A DNA stretch of 64,000 nt from Planomonospora sp. ID67723 (lineage in GTDB: Bacteria; Actinomycetota; Actinomycetes; Streptosporangiales; Streptosporangiaceae). Both the position numbers and the translations under genes were made by a program. Numbering within the stretch: the stretch's first letter is position 1; each line of letters opens with the position of its first letter. The DNA lies in assembly GCF_015711605.1 (NCBI RefSeq), contig NZ_JABTEZ010000004.1, positions 1 through 64,000 on the forward strand, written 5' to 3'. A model generated the notes under the pieces. The model did not search any database and was not told the DNA's origin. It saw nothing but the letters and a program-made list of their open reading frames with translations. Of this stretch, positions 24,585-29,290 are shown piece by piece.

Positions 24585-25826
24585 TCACACGGATCGGGCA
24601 GCGGAGGTGACCGCTTCGACGGTCGGATATGCCGTGGGCCTGGTGAGCAGATCAGTGGCCAGGCTGACGCAGCGCAACTCGCAAGCGGCCCGGATGTCGT
24701 CATCGGGAATGCTCTGCAGCTCCACAACGTGTGCCAGACCGAAGATCCGCCGGAGGATCTCGGTGCCGCAGAAACCGAGCGTATCGGCCCAGACCTGGTC
24801 CACATACCGTCGGCGTTCCGTGTCCAAGTCCGCGGGGTGCGCGAACAGGGCGCGCGGGTAGGCGTCGCCGTCCGCGCTCCGCTCCCACAGCTGGAGGAAA
24901 CGACGGCTGAAACCGTGCCACAGTTCCTCGATCACCTCCAGGATCCACTCCTGGTACTCGTTGCGCTCTGCATCGGCGGGCTGGTGGCCGGCCCGGGCGA
25001 GGTGGCCGATCAGCAGGTGCGCGAGCAGAGTGCCGAGGTCGAAGCCCATCGGGCCGAAGCATGCGAACTCCTGGTCGATGACCCGGGTGTCGTCCTCGGT
25101 GACCAGGATGGATCCGGTGTGCAGGTCGCCGTGGAGCAGTGCCTGGGCGCAGGTGAGATAGCGCAGCTTCAACCGTGATGCAGCGATCTTGAGTCCGGTG
25201 TCGCTGCGCAGGCGGTCGGCTGCCGCGTCCAACTGCGGGTGGGTCCAGGAGTTGCGCCAGTGTTCCCGGTAGGTCTCGGTGAAGACCATGTCCTCCATAA
25301 TCTGTGTCATCTCGGTGTTACCGCCGAATAGGGTGGCCAGCCGCCGTTTCTCCACCGCCGGGCGAGCCAGGTCGGAGGTGCCGAACATCGATCCGGCCAA
25401 GTACTCGGCGAGCTGCCGGGCCAGCCGCGGATAGCGCACTCCATGCAACAGCCCGTGGCGCAGGACGACGTGCGGTGCGAGGTGCTCCAGGGCGAGGAGG
25501 TTCCTCTCCGGGTCGTAGCCCAGGACTTCCGGGACGCGGGCGGCGACCAGGCGTCCGTGTTCCTGCAGCGCCCGATATTCGTAGTAGGTCCTCCGAGGGG
25601 TCAGCGGCCAGGACTCGCCGACCACACGGACGTACGGCATGGCCTGCTTGACGCAGATCCGACCGGCCGGTCCGCGCACCTCGAAGACATAATTGACGTT
25701 GCCGTCGCCGATCTCCCGGACGCGCCAGTCGCCGGGCCGTCCGCCGAGACGCGCGGCCACCGCGGGGACGCCGTTCAGATGCTCTGCGAGCGCTGGACCT
25801 TCGAGCAACGCATACGTGGCGGCCAT
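24585..25826 (-). CDS. mtnK: S-methyl-5-thioribose kinase-like protein (MtnK family)
   Basis: 413 aa of the usual MtnK length. Family signatures: REIGDGNVNYVFEVRG (glycine-rich nucleotide loop), KQAMPYVRVVGESWPLT, the catalytic loop LLHGDLHTGSI and the metal-binding VIDQEFACFGPMGFDLG. MtnK phosphorylates 5-methylthioribose in methionine salvage. No mtnA or other salvage gene is nearby. Instead, it is 13 bp downstream of a flavin oxidase gene and close to a diiron oxygenase remnant. It may serve a specialised pathway rather than housekeeping salvage. Confidence 0.85.
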   Translation of the reverse strand: MAATYALLEGPALAEHLNGVPAVAARLGGRPGDWRVREIGDGNVNYVFEVRGPAGRICVKQAMPYVRVVGESWPLTPRRTYYEYRALQEHGRLVAARVPEVLGYDPERNLLALEHLAPHVVLRHGLLHGVRYPRLARQLAEYLAGSMFGTSDLARPAVEKRRLATLFGGNTEMTQIMEDMVFTETYREHWRNSWTHPQLDAAADRLRSDTGLKIAASRLKLRYLTCAQALLHGDLHTGSILVTEDDTRVIDQEFACFGPMGFDLGTLLAHLLIGHLARAGHQPADAERNEYQEWILEVIEELWHGFSRRFLQLWERSADGDAYPRALFAHPADLDTERRRYVDQVWADTLGFCGTEILRRIFGLAHVVELQSIPDDDIRAACELRCVSLATDLLTRPTAYPTVEAVTSAARSV

Positions 25827-25839
25827 GGGCTTCTCCCCT

Positions 25840-27369
25840 TCATCTCACATCCCAGCACACCGCGTCCGGGCGTAGCCACACAGGGCGCGGCAGACGGAAT
25901 TCCTCGTGCAGGACACGTTCCGCCGCTTCCAGTACTCCCTCGACCGATCCGGGCCGCGGCGTCCAGCCGTCGCTGATCCACAACACCGGTTCGCCGGGCA
26001 GCGGCCGCCGCATGACCGGGATCACCGCGTCGGCGTCGTACCCCGGGCGCCACACCGGCCATGCCCCGCCGTAGGGATCACCGGACCAGTCCTGCCAACG
26101 GGAGGCGGCGGGCCGCGGTGCCGTGGTGAGGCCGTGGAGCTCCAGCAGCATGTCGTGGGCTCGCTCGACCAGGCGCGGAGAGGCCGGTCCCGGCCTTCTG
26201 CTCGCTGCTGGCCCGAGATCGTCGGCCAATGCCTTCCAATACCGGTGGGCGGCGCCGTCCGCGTACACGGCCAGCAGGGCTCCCGGGCCGTCGCCGTCCG
26301 GTGTGGTCCAATACCACAACTGCCGGACCGGCAGGTCGCTGGTGCTGCGCCCTCTTGCCACGCCGGCCCGGCGCCACCAGGCGACCGGGTAGGTGAGGAA
26401 GAGCTTGGCCGCGGGTACCCGGTGCAGGCTCGCCAAGCCGTGGCGGAACGCGGCGTGATGGAAGGGCAGAGCCTTTGATTCCAGACACTCGACCGCGTGA
26501 GCGGGTAAGGCGAGCAGGACGGCCCGTGCCAGCACCTCACGTTGATCGTCCCCGTCGAACCACAGCCGGTACCCGCCGGTGCGGGTGCGCTCCAGCCGTA
26601 CCAGCCGATGCCCGAAGAAGGTGAGGCCGCCGGCCTGGGTGAAGCGGCGGTGCAAGGAGCGCGGAACTTCCTGGAACCCGCAGCGGAGCCCGAGGTATCC
26701 GCCCTCCGGCGGGGTCTGGAACATGGCGTCCAGGTGGTAGGCCGCGCTACCGGCCGATTCTCGGCCGTCGTAACCGCCGCTGTCCTCCAGGAGCGCTGCG
26801 GCATCGGGACTCAGCACGGCCTCGGTCAGTTCCGTCCAGGGGACCTCGTGCAGCGGACGGCCCTGCCACCTCGCCGCGCGCCGGGCTTGCCGATAGCGCT
26901 CCACCGCCAGAACGGCCGGTCTTCCCCTGCAACCGGCCGACTCCGCGCGCATCGCCGAGAAGCCGGGCATCGCCCGCTCGGCGACCAGATCCACAAGCCC
27001 GTCGCGGGCGAGCCCCAGTTCCTCCGGACGCAGCCGGTAAGGGAGCGTCTGCGCACCCGAATGCAACTGGTGTTCGCGCAGCCGTACGCCGCGGATGTAG
27101 GTCAGGTTCTCCGGTCGTCCGAAGTCGAAGGGGAAGACCTCCTCCTGCAGGCCGAGATGCAGCACGAGGTCGACGAGGACGTGCTCGGTCGCGTCGAAGC
27201 GCATCGCTCCGTACTCGGCCGCCGCCCCCGGCACTCCGGGCAGCGGCGCAGAGCAGAGCCGGCCCCCGACACGCCGAGAGGCCTCGAAAAGCGCCACACG
27301 CTGACCGGCCAGCCGGTAGGCGAGGTAGCAGCCACCGATTCCGGCCCCCACGACGGCGATGTCCCACAT
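25840..27369 (-). CDS. FAD-dependent amine-oxidase-like protein
   Basis: 509 aa. The N-terminus DIAVVGAGIGGCYLAYRLAG is a Rossmann FAD-binding motif, followed by ALFEASRRVGGRL and EYGAMRFD. The end has ILWISDGWTPRPGSVEGVLEA, where amine oxidases normally carry the second flavin contact. The middle is divergent and the substrate cannot be predicted. GGGAAGGG precedes the chosen ATG. An ATG 36 bp upstream is possible. It is cotranscribed with the MtnK-like gene and divergent from an unrecognised protein. Confidence 0.8.
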   Translation of the reverse strand: MWDIAVVGAGIGGCYLAYRLAGQRVALFEASRRVGGRLCSAPLPGVPGAAAEYGAMRFDATEHVLVDLVLHLGLQEEVFPFDFGRPENLTYIRGVRLREHQLHSGAQTLPYRLRPEELGLARDGLVDLVAERAMPGFSAMRAESAGCRGRPAVLAVERYRQARRAARWQGRPLHEVPWTELTEAVLSPDAAALLEDSGGYDGRESAGSAAYHLDAMFQTPPEGGYLGLRCGFQEVPRSLHRRFTQAGGLTFFGHRLVRLERTRTGGYRLWFDGDDQREVLARAVLLALPAHAVECLESKALPFHHAAFRHGLASLHRVPAAKLFLTYPVAWWRRAGVARGRSTSDLPVRQLWYWTTPDGDGPGALLAVYADGAAHRYWKALADDLGPAASRRPGPASPRLVERAHDMLLELHGLTTAPRPAASRWQDWSGDPYGGAWPVWRPGYDADAVIPVMRRPLPGEPVLWISDGWTPRPGSVEGVLEAAERVLHEEFRLPRPVWLRPDAVCWDVR

Positions 27370-27439
27370 AGGCCCTTCCCATCCGTCGAAGCCGCAGCGC
27401 TTCACTCTCGCCTTGCCAGCAAGCCGGACAACACGTAGT

Positions 27440-27455
27440 GTATCAGCTTAAATAC
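27440..27455. promoter_or_regulatory. AT-rich inverted repeat in a divergent promoter
   Basis: GTATCAGCTTAAATAC has GTAT/ATAC arms. It lies in the only AT-rich patch of the 121-bp divergent region between the flavin oxidase and the 27491 gene. It may be an operator or the shared promoter core. Confidence 0.35.
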
Positions 27456-27490
27456 GGAGAGTAGCTATTCTGTCCGCGCAACATGCCGAT

Positions 27491-28273
27491 ATGGCCAAGA
27501 AGACGGGACCGAGGATGACGTTCAGGCATCACACGCCTAGCCGTGCGATCAACGGCTACCGCCAAATGGAGGAGTACTTCTGTGACGTACGCTCCTTCTT
27601 CGAGGTGCTGAACGTCCGCTTCTCCATCCCCGAATACGGAGTGGGGCTTCAGCCGATCGGCGGTCAGGCGCTGTTCTCCAATGCCAACAGCTACCTGCTC
27701 TCGGACGACAGTTCTTATCCCTTCTACCTGTGGCTGCCGACGTGGCTGGGGCGTTTCTACCTCGACCCGACGACCGTTCCGCCCGGCACCGCGGTCGACG
27801 ACTGCCCGATGGGGCAGGCACGGCTGCTGGCCTTCGTCTGGCCCTGGCTGGGCTTCAACGATGCCTACCTCGACGACGCCGAACCCGAATGCTGGTTCGG
27901 CGTATGCGAGCCGTCCCCGGCGGATCTCCACGAGAAGGCGGTGGTGACCGCCGAAAAGATCTTCCTTTACTTCCGGCTCGAACGGACCCGTGAACGGGAA
28001 ACAAACGGCTGGACCACCGGCGGATTCCGGGGCGCCGAGATCGGCTGTGACCTGCAAGGCCGCTGGTTCCTGCGGCGGGTCCCGCTCTCCGAGCTCACGA
28101 CCTACCACGGGATCGAGAAAAACGTGATCGCACCGCTCGGCGAGCTGTTCCACAGGTTGCAGCACCCGGGTGGCGGTGTGCCCCAGCTGACCACCGTCCA
28201 ACTCCCCCAGACCCGGCCCAGGCAGGCCGCCGCCATCCGCTCTGACGGCCAGATCGACGGAGGCGGTAGATGA
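27491..28273 (+). CDS. Unrecognised protein in the kinase/flavin-oxidase/diiron locus
   Basis: 260 aa, soluble, no signal peptide. The composition is aromatic and acidic, with blocks such as SNANSYLLSDDSSYPFYLWL, FVWPWLGFNDAYLDD, ECWFGVCEPSPADLH and IFLYFRLERTRE. I do not recognise the family. The gene's stop overlaps the diiron-oxygenase start by 4 nt, so the two were coupled. An ATG at 27515 has GGGACCGAGG just ahead and could be the true start. Its context suggests a pathway protein rather than a regulator. Confidence 0.75.
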   Translation: MAKKTGPRMTFRHHTPSRAINGYRQMEEYFCDVRSFFEVLNVRFSIPEYGVGLQPIGGQALFSNANSYLLSDDSSYPFYLWLPTWLGRFYLDPTTVPPGTAVDDCPMGQARLLAFVWPWLGFNDAYLDDAEPECWFGVCEPSPADLHEKAVVTAEKIFLYFRLERTRERETNGWTTGGFRGAEIGCDLQGRWFLRRVPLSELTTYHGIEKNVIAPLGELFHRLQHPGGGVPQLTTVQLPQTRPRQAAAIRSDGQIDGGGR

Positions 28274-28955
28274 CGGACGGCCTCTCCTGGCGGCCGCCGC
28301 CGTACGTCCCCGAGAGTCTCCTGCCGGGCACACCCCCATACGACCCGGCCGATCCAGTCGAGAACGCCGTCATCCGGCGACTGGCCGGCAACTGGCACCG
28401 CAGAGCCGCGGTCAAACACAACGCGCCGCTGGCCGAGCAGCAGGTGGTCAATGCGGCTTTCGGCCTCGTGCTGGAAGGCGCGTATCCGGGCGTGCGCGGG
28501 GAGTCGCTGCGCCAGGCCGTCGCGCAAGCCATGGTGGACGAGCAATATCACACCCTGATGCATCTCAACGCCAGCGCACGGACCCGGCGGCGACGCAACC
28601 TCACCGCATCCGGTCTGGATCTACCGGCGCCGTACACCGTACGCGAACATGCGCGCCTGTCCGCCTCGGCCGGGGAGTCCTGGCAGCGACCGTGTATCAC
28701 CATCTCGACGTTCGGCGCCGGCCGTATTTCTTCGACATGCTCGCGCGCGGTCTGGACGCTTTCGCCGCCAACGACTACCTCGCATGGCGTTGGATCATGG
28801 ACCTCACCCGGATCCCGCGAAGCCGCACGATACTCGCGGACTGCCGCTCGGACCCGTCGCGTCGGCGGCTGGTGCGCGACTACACCGGGCTGCGCGCCCT
28901 CACCGACCGGATGGGCGTCACCGGCCGCGTGGACCTCGACTGGCACCCCCGGTGA
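28270..28955 (+). pseudogene. AurF-type diiron N-oxygenase, truncated and frameshifted
   Basis: The first frame (to about residue 140) has E-X33-DEQYH within VDEQYHTLMH, the first half of the EX28-37DEX2H...EX2H diiron signature of AurF-like p-aminobenzoate N-oxygenases. The second half is missing. From about 28640-28690 the coding signal moves to another frame, reading VYHHLDVRRRPYFFDMLARG, then WIMDLTRIPRS and RRRLVRDYTGL, an AurF-like C-terminal end. The total is about 100 residues short of the roughly 330 expected, and the second ligand set is gone. It is probably inactive. Confidence 0.65.
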
Positions 28956-29027: not shown

Positions 29028-29290
29028 ATGTCGCTGTCGCGTCCGGGGCCGAAGCTCGCACCGCTGGAACTGACCGTCGAGGAACGCCACGCACCGGTCG
29101 ACGCGGTCGATGGCCCGACAGCTCGGCCTGTCGCAGGCGCATCCGCGTTTCCGCACCCACCTCACCCCGACCGGCGCGTCCTGGCTCAACCTGGTCGAGC
29201 GGTGGTTCGCGGAGCTGACGAACAAGCGGATACGGAGGGGTGAGCACCGGCCGGTCCAGGCGCTGGAGAAGGACATCCGCTATCGAGGCC
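29028..29290 (+). pseudogene. IS630-family transposase, internally deleted
   Basis: An N-terminal piece, MSLSRPGPKLAPLELTVEER, is followed after a deletion and frameshift by FRTHLTPTGASWLNLVERWF and AELTNKRIRRGEHRPVQALE. The latter is the DDE-motif C-terminus of an IS630-type transposase. The whole central domain is missing. It follows the broken diiron oxygenase immediately. Confidence 0.7.

Follow-up and report, generated by a model that had tools for sequence, protein, structure and literature searches.

A divergent pair of an oxidase gene and an orphan gene, with a variable kinase and oxygenase, in Planomonospora sp. ID67723 and other actinobacteria

We analysed a 64,000-nucleotide stretch of the genome of Planomonospora sp. 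ID67723 (contig NZ_JABTEZ010000004.1, positions 1 to 64,000; hereafter the window) and focused on a set of four genes at 24585-28955. On the reverse strand lie two intact genes, one for a flavin adenine dinucleotide (FAD)-dependent protein of the L-amino acid oxidase type (LAAO) and, beginning 13 bp beyond its end, one for a kinase of the methylthioribose (MTR) kinase type (MtnK). Divergent from them on the forward strand are an intact gene for an orphan protein (here called UNK) and a broken gene of the AurF/CmlI diiron oxygenase type. The original prediction, made from the DNA letters of the window, had listed these same four genes, and that description proved accurate. The coordinates are collected in Table 1, where the UNK start was preferred to the one first proposed on the basis of its homologues. 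In 12 relatives the region between the LAAO and UNK genes measures 76 to 189 bp, with gene starts taken from alignments.

Table 1. Coordinates of the genes and remnants in the window.
Feature	Position	Strand	Remarks
MtnK, S-methyl-5-thioribose kinase-type, 413 aa, intact	24585..25826	-	TIGR01767
LAAO, FAD-dependent L-amino-acid-oxidase-type, 509 aa, intact	25840..27369	-	PF01593; alternative longer start 27405
LAAO/UNK divergent intergenic region, 145 bp	27370..27514	.	gap between probable starts
UNK, orphan protein, 252 aa, intact	27515..28273	+	no family match; start first proposed at 27491
AurF/CmlI-type diiron N-oxygenase gene, N-terminal remnant	28270..28691	+	PF11583; start overlaps UNK stop
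AurF/CmlI-type gene, C-terminal remnant, different frame	28692..28955	+	PF11583

We then asked where UNK recurs. A pattern scan that covered one genome per species for 84,980 species, and that can detect no more than close relatives, yielded 13 loci with UNK (12 in Streptomyces and one in Saccharothrix), and a plasmid search gave one more in Embleya. Among 394 genomes sampled from the class, UNK occurred in the window's own and in G425, while two loci found in a sample of 343 genomes from the genus group of the S. cinerochromogenes genome (G442) were both already known. Among 100 relatives searched, UNK was present in the window's own genome only. All 16 distinct loci, the window included, were kept for the counts below, and genes at the relatives' loci were called by a codon-usage caller. 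Five loci are referred to repeatedly: L003 (Streptomyces cinerochromogenes), L004 (S. cellostaticus), L005 (Streptomyces sp. APSN-46.1), L018 (Embleya sp. NBC_00896) and L052 (G425). LAAO adjoined UNK divergently at every one of the 16 loci; because the pair recurs in 15 other genomes, its arrangement in the window is not due to chance. MtnK adjoined LAAO in nine (the window, L003-L007, L013, L018 and L052), and the AurF-type gene was found in none of the other 15. The constant core of the set is LAAO together with UNK, and MtnK and an exchangeable oxygenase are layers added to it. The original prediction had envisaged a small biosynthetic set whose unknown protein would always sit with the kinase, the FAD gene and an intact AurF gene. 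A small conserved set does exist and UNK was never found apart from the FAD gene, but MtnK and AurF are not constant members, AurF being a local occupant. Across the 16 loci the UNK and LAAO trees mirror each other closely (r 0.94, with none of 2000 label shuffles as high).

That UNK belongs to no recognised family, as originally proposed, was borne out. The window protein had no match in Pfam, NCBIfam or PHROGs, and nothing significant emerged from these collections or the PDB for the UNK sequences; the L003 homologue gave two PHROG rows with E values of 0.13 and 0.17. The family is nevertheless well conserved, with 98 of 221 columns invariant in an alignment of 14 sequences. AlphaFold models of the window protein and the L003 homologue (predicted local distance difference test, pLDDT, of 71 and 78) both have an alpha/beta layout, and the strongly conserved stretch around NANSYLLSD lies mostly below pLDDT 50 in them. 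Foldseek returned no match at E 0.001 for either model. The top VIA-align rows for both models were type III secretion chaperones and YbjN proteins, with best Z scores of 6.5 and 6.4, values (below 8) that may reflect a mere common arrangement. UNK is a real orphan family, so far found solely beside one oxidase clade. Of 169 genomes from the genus sample, G442 alone had LAAO of this type; the nearest other LAAO (G555, 339 bits, 593 aa) was distant, and no UNK match was found in the G555 genome.

LAAO matched PF01593 with an E value of 4.3e-31. Its best NCBIfam model was VioA (E 9.7e-19), and with 67.9 bits, where the cut-off is 600, it falls outside the VioA tryptophan oxidases. The violacein systems nevertheless offer an analogous layout of an oxidase with a small partner, since VioA is accompanied by the small protein VioE; UNK differs in matching no named family. 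Against solved structures, the profile of the LAAO family scored best with the L-arginine oxidase PT-AROD (8T8A and 8JT7, 325 and 323 bits), followed by ancestral LAAO and lysine oxidase (7EIH, an ancestral L-Lys oxidase, 226 bits). R57 and K322, which we take to be the carboxylate-binding arginine and the active-site lysine, were invariant in all 16 LAAOs and aligned with their PT-AROD counterparts. With the FAD amine-oxidase fold and both of these residues kept, LAAO has the sequence features expected of FAD L-amino acid oxidases. In the available part of the PT-AROD report, Glu493 and Gln350 were tested as substrate-pocket residues governing Arg/Lys selectivity, the E493A variant was relatively more active on Phe, Leu and Met, and no UNK-like partner is mentioned (PMC11694665). 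In our column-by-column alignment, Q350 corresponds to V318, invariant in the LAAOs of the set, and E493 to V, M, I, L or T. Because these selectivity residues are replaced while the arginine and lysine stay, LAAO is predicted to oxidise L-amino acids in a pocket that is neutral or hydrophobic, and L-arginine is disfavoured as its substrate. The idea that the whole set acts on an amino- or thio-sugar-like substrate is unproven, because the likeness of the FAD protein is to L-amino acid oxidases, the nearest solved one being an L-arginine oxidase; the kinase alone points to a sugar.

The window MtnK scored 441.7 bits with TIGR01767 (cut-off 275) and was the sole match in its genome. Among structures it matched 2pyw, presumably an Arabidopsis protein (356 bits), and 2olc, an MtnK (225 bits). 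The HGDLH motif and a twin arginine were kept in all 38 aligned MtnKs, the window's included, with the arginine pair aligned to those of 2olc and 2pyw; we take the HGD and twin-arginine motifs to be catalytic in MTR kinases. In a tree of these 38 sequences the nine MtnKs found beside LAAO were monophyletic (support 1.000) and stood apart from the 29 others, and the window protein was 53-56% identical to members of its own clade vs 34-39% to the rest. Each of the eight other carriers had one MtnK over the cut-off, the one beside LAAO (for Embleya, within the plasmid record only), and of the 29 genomes with an over-cut-off MtnK in the genus sample of 343, one had this type. Next, we searched 14 genomes for MtnA, the MTR-1-phosphate isomerase (TIGR00512, E 0.001). 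No match was found in the window's genome, G001, G425 or G444; the remaining ten had matches, nine of them over the cut-off and none inside the set. In contrast, all four salvage-type genomes that we tested (G450, G698, G716 and G522) had MtnA 6.4-6.7 kb from MtnK. Thus the kinase was rightly described as standing without salvage genes, insofar as MtnA is not detectable in the window's genome, either with the kinase or elsewhere, as an isomerase of the MtnA/DrdI kind would be for salvage. MTA (methylthioadenosine) nucleosidase does not discriminate, since none of 17 genomes, including a salvage-type one, had a match over the cut-off (13 had weaker matches and the window's genome none). An ordinary salvage kinase is disfavoured by the separate clade, the missing MtnA and the content of the locus. 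A genome of the MtnK-less group carries a salvage-type MtnK together with MtnA elsewhere (G450:C118, L051). We know of no MTR kinase in a biosynthetic role, and none turned up in our literature search. DrdK, an MtnK-related kinase outside methionine salvage, used both 5-deoxyribose and MTR according to the available part of PMC6079011; the MtnKs of our set keep the motifs and the over-cut-off TIGR01767 score of salvage MtnKs and differ in forming a clade of their own.

The gene behind UNK in the window was described as coupled to UNK, AurF-like and broken, and all three points hold. Its two remnants matched PF11583 with E values of 1.6e-9 and 1.4e-4. The N-terminal remnant aligned to residues 96-184 of AurF and 76-171 of 5hyg, the nearest structure, which we take to be CmlI; the C-terminal one aligned to AurF 243-325 and 5hyg 229-311. 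Approximately 58 residues have been lost between them, and the frame is lost too. This is more than a frameshift, because AurF residues between 184 and 243 have no counterpart, and the gene is dead rather than affected by a one-base sequencing slip. Of the metal ligands that we assume for AurF (E101, E136, H139, E196, H223, E227 and H230), the first three have counterparts, whereas the other four fall within the lost stretch (AurF 185-242). The sequence is therefore the remnant of an arylamine N-oxygenase-type gene and not a working AurF/CmlI member. A diiron oxygenase encoded on Rhodococcus plasmids shares ~39% identity with it; the genes around that oxygenase, among them pabB and genes for AMP-binding and MBL-fold proteins, differ from those in the window. 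About 150 bp past the dead gene lies a forward-strand fragment (29110-29286) with a likeness to DDE-type transposases (PF13358, E 0.0011, below cut-off), which may be a cause or a sign of local decay. The window's genome also contains two further near-full-length AurF-family matches (G000:C3:404968-405819 and C3:704691-705500). As AurF-family genes over the cut-off occurred somewhere in all 16 genomes searched, presence at the genome level is uninformative. At the other 15 loci the gene was absent: tblastn of 13 gave nothing significant, the Embleya record had none, and G425 has its AurF genes 1.7 Mb from the set. We therefore rejected the idea that AurF regularly belongs to the set.

At six loci (L003-L007 and L018), the gene after UNK encodes instead a flavin-type oxygenase of the acyl-CoA dehydrogenase fold, in the same overlapping position. 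In all seven carriers of an oxygenase, a start codon in the oxygenase frame overlaps the UNK stop; the overlap reads TGATG at the six loci and ATGA in the window. The flavin oxygenase matched the SfnB model with E 2.9e-7, at 29.7 bits far below the cut-off of 430.9, and its best PDB matches were 3nf4 and TdsC (5xb8). No match to it was found at L013 or L052. At L005 (8720-9437), ~85 internal residues and the frame of this gene have been lost, independently of the breakage in the window's oxygenase slot. Relatives at E 1e-20 occurred in 58 of 199 genomes of the G442 genus group, G442 included. Five other loci with such genes (four of the six closest, at 279-314 bits, and one more distant) gave no hint of a pathway; two of them share neighbours and are syntenic with each other, without a family scan of these neighbours. 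The available part of PMC10724926 describes an N-oxygenase of the heme-oxygenase-like diiron family, which is not AurF.

In the unrooted UNK and LAAO trees, the window was sister to the clade with the flavin oxygenase (support 0.975 and 0.970). The simplest history that we infer is a LAAO-UNK core to which MtnK was added, after which the slot behind UNK was filled by either of two unrelated oxygenases, with two independent breakages.

What could such a set do? Our favoured reading, which we hold tentatively and at somewhat less than even probability, is that it is an undescribed, compact and scattered specialised-metabolite module built on the LAAO-UNK core. This agrees with the earlier suggestion of a possible undescribed pathway; its chemical steps are predictions. 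LAAO would take a neutral or hydrophobic L-amino acid and oxidise its alpha-amine to give an imino or keto acid, with release of H2O2, and UNK may handle this labile product or act on LAAO itself. At one set of loci, the MTR kinase of the module branch would supply a 5-deoxy- or 5-thio-pentose 1-phosphate as a building block or by recycling. Last, the oxygenase, either the flavin monooxygenase or, in the window, the CmlI-like diiron enzyme, would act on an amine; N-oxygenation is placed here because amine N-oxygenation is the chemistry common to AurF-type and some acyl-CoA-dehydrogenase-fold oxygenases. In the window's strain this last step has been lost, while MtnK, LAAO and UNK look intact. 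The reading draws on the constant LAAO-UNK adjacency and the mirrored trees, the separate MtnK clade with no MtnA match in the window's genome, G425 or G444, the oxygenase starts that overlap the UNK stop, the replaced selectivity residues of LAAO and the varied flanks of the nine MtnK-bearing loci. Several observations weigh against the module reading. The full set is not obligatory, as seven loci (L008-L012, L014 and L015) have no MtnK beside LAAO and nine of the 16 have no oxygenase at all. Mirrored UNK and LAAO trees can come from linkage alone, and part of this linkage is plain synteny, because flanking MMPL and PH-domain genes are common to MtnK-less loci. The MtnK tree does not repeat the sister position of the window: in it the window diverges before the other eight, on weakly supported internal branches (0.790 and 0.372). 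The flavin oxygenase is nearest to SfnB, to DszC/TdsC-type sulfur enzymes and to acyl-CoA dehydrogenases, and is not demonstrably an N-oxygenase; moreover, the predicted fold of UNK weakly resembles non-enzymatic proteins. A bolder version, which we regard as quite improbable, makes UNK a new kind of enzyme that joins or rearranges the imino acid made by the oxidase with the pentose 1-phosphate made by MtnK, to give an amine that either oxygenase then N-oxygenates. If true, this would mean an undescribed class of actinobacterial metabolite and an MTR kinase repurposed for biosynthesis.

The same genes could also serve sulfur or methionine scavenging, with LAAO oxidising Met or a similar thioether amino acid, MtnK capturing MTR and the flavin enzyme oxygenating sulfur. 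The MTR-kinase score and motifs of MtnK, the weak SfnB match (SfnB acting in sulfur acquisition) and the likeness to TdsC/DszC agree with this, as do the TauE and sulfotransferase genes downstream in G425 and LAAO pocket residues that appear compatible with Met. However, MtnA was not found in three of the eight module genomes tested, MtnK is missing from seven UNK loci, and CmlI/AurF, the occupant of the same slot in the window, is presumably an arylamine enzyme, so that we consider scavenging rather unlikely. It is also unlikely, in our view, that UNK is a non-enzymatic folding or regulatory partner of LAAO in a unit that yields mainly H2O2 and keto acid, with MtnK and the oxygenase as accessories. 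Such a partner would explain the invariable adjacency, the mirrored trees and the chaperone and YbjN proteins at the top of both structural searches; yet those Z scores have the limit given above, and the many polar or aromatic residues among the invariant columns would exceed what is expected of a chaperone. Finally, the AurF gene of the window might be an unrelated passenger or relic behind UNK that says nothing about the chemistry of the module. Its death, its absence from all other loci, the nearby transposase-like fragment and the failure of the MtnK tree to group the window with the oxygenase-bearing clade would fit. Against this, its ATG overlaps the UNK stop in the manner of the flavin oxygenase start of six relatives, and both the UNK and LAAO trees make the window sister to exactly that clade; a passenger is improbable.

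In our literature search, which did not reach most subscription journals, no description of this gene combination was found. On the module reading, the results delimit a gene unit that can be tested: an orphan family that accompanies a single oxidase clade, together with an MTR kinase that belongs to no salvage locus. That a diiron and a flavin-type oxygenase replace one another in the position overlapping UNK limits the chemistry that comes into question. Since the oxygenase frames are intact in S. cinerochromogenes (L003), S. cellostaticus (L004) and Embleya sp. NBC_00896 (L018), a direct search for the product is feasible.

The surroundings of the core differed between the two groups of loci. 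Where MtnK is missing, UNK is followed by a small DUF5988-type gene at all seven loci, and LAAO, at six of the seven, by a homologue of a cold-shock-domain gene that encodes a long-tailed protein. At the nine MtnK-bearing loci the flanking genes vary, except for an amino-acid permease common to L003 and L006. The extended neighbourhoods of G425 and the Saccharothrix locus were compared and held no common cluster. A BCCT transporter gene adjoins the set at L013. At L052 (13214-17668), MtnK is followed by genes for a GMC oxidoreductase, a class III aminotransferase, a sulfotransferase and a TauE-type transporter, which are possibly extra steps of the pathway in G425.

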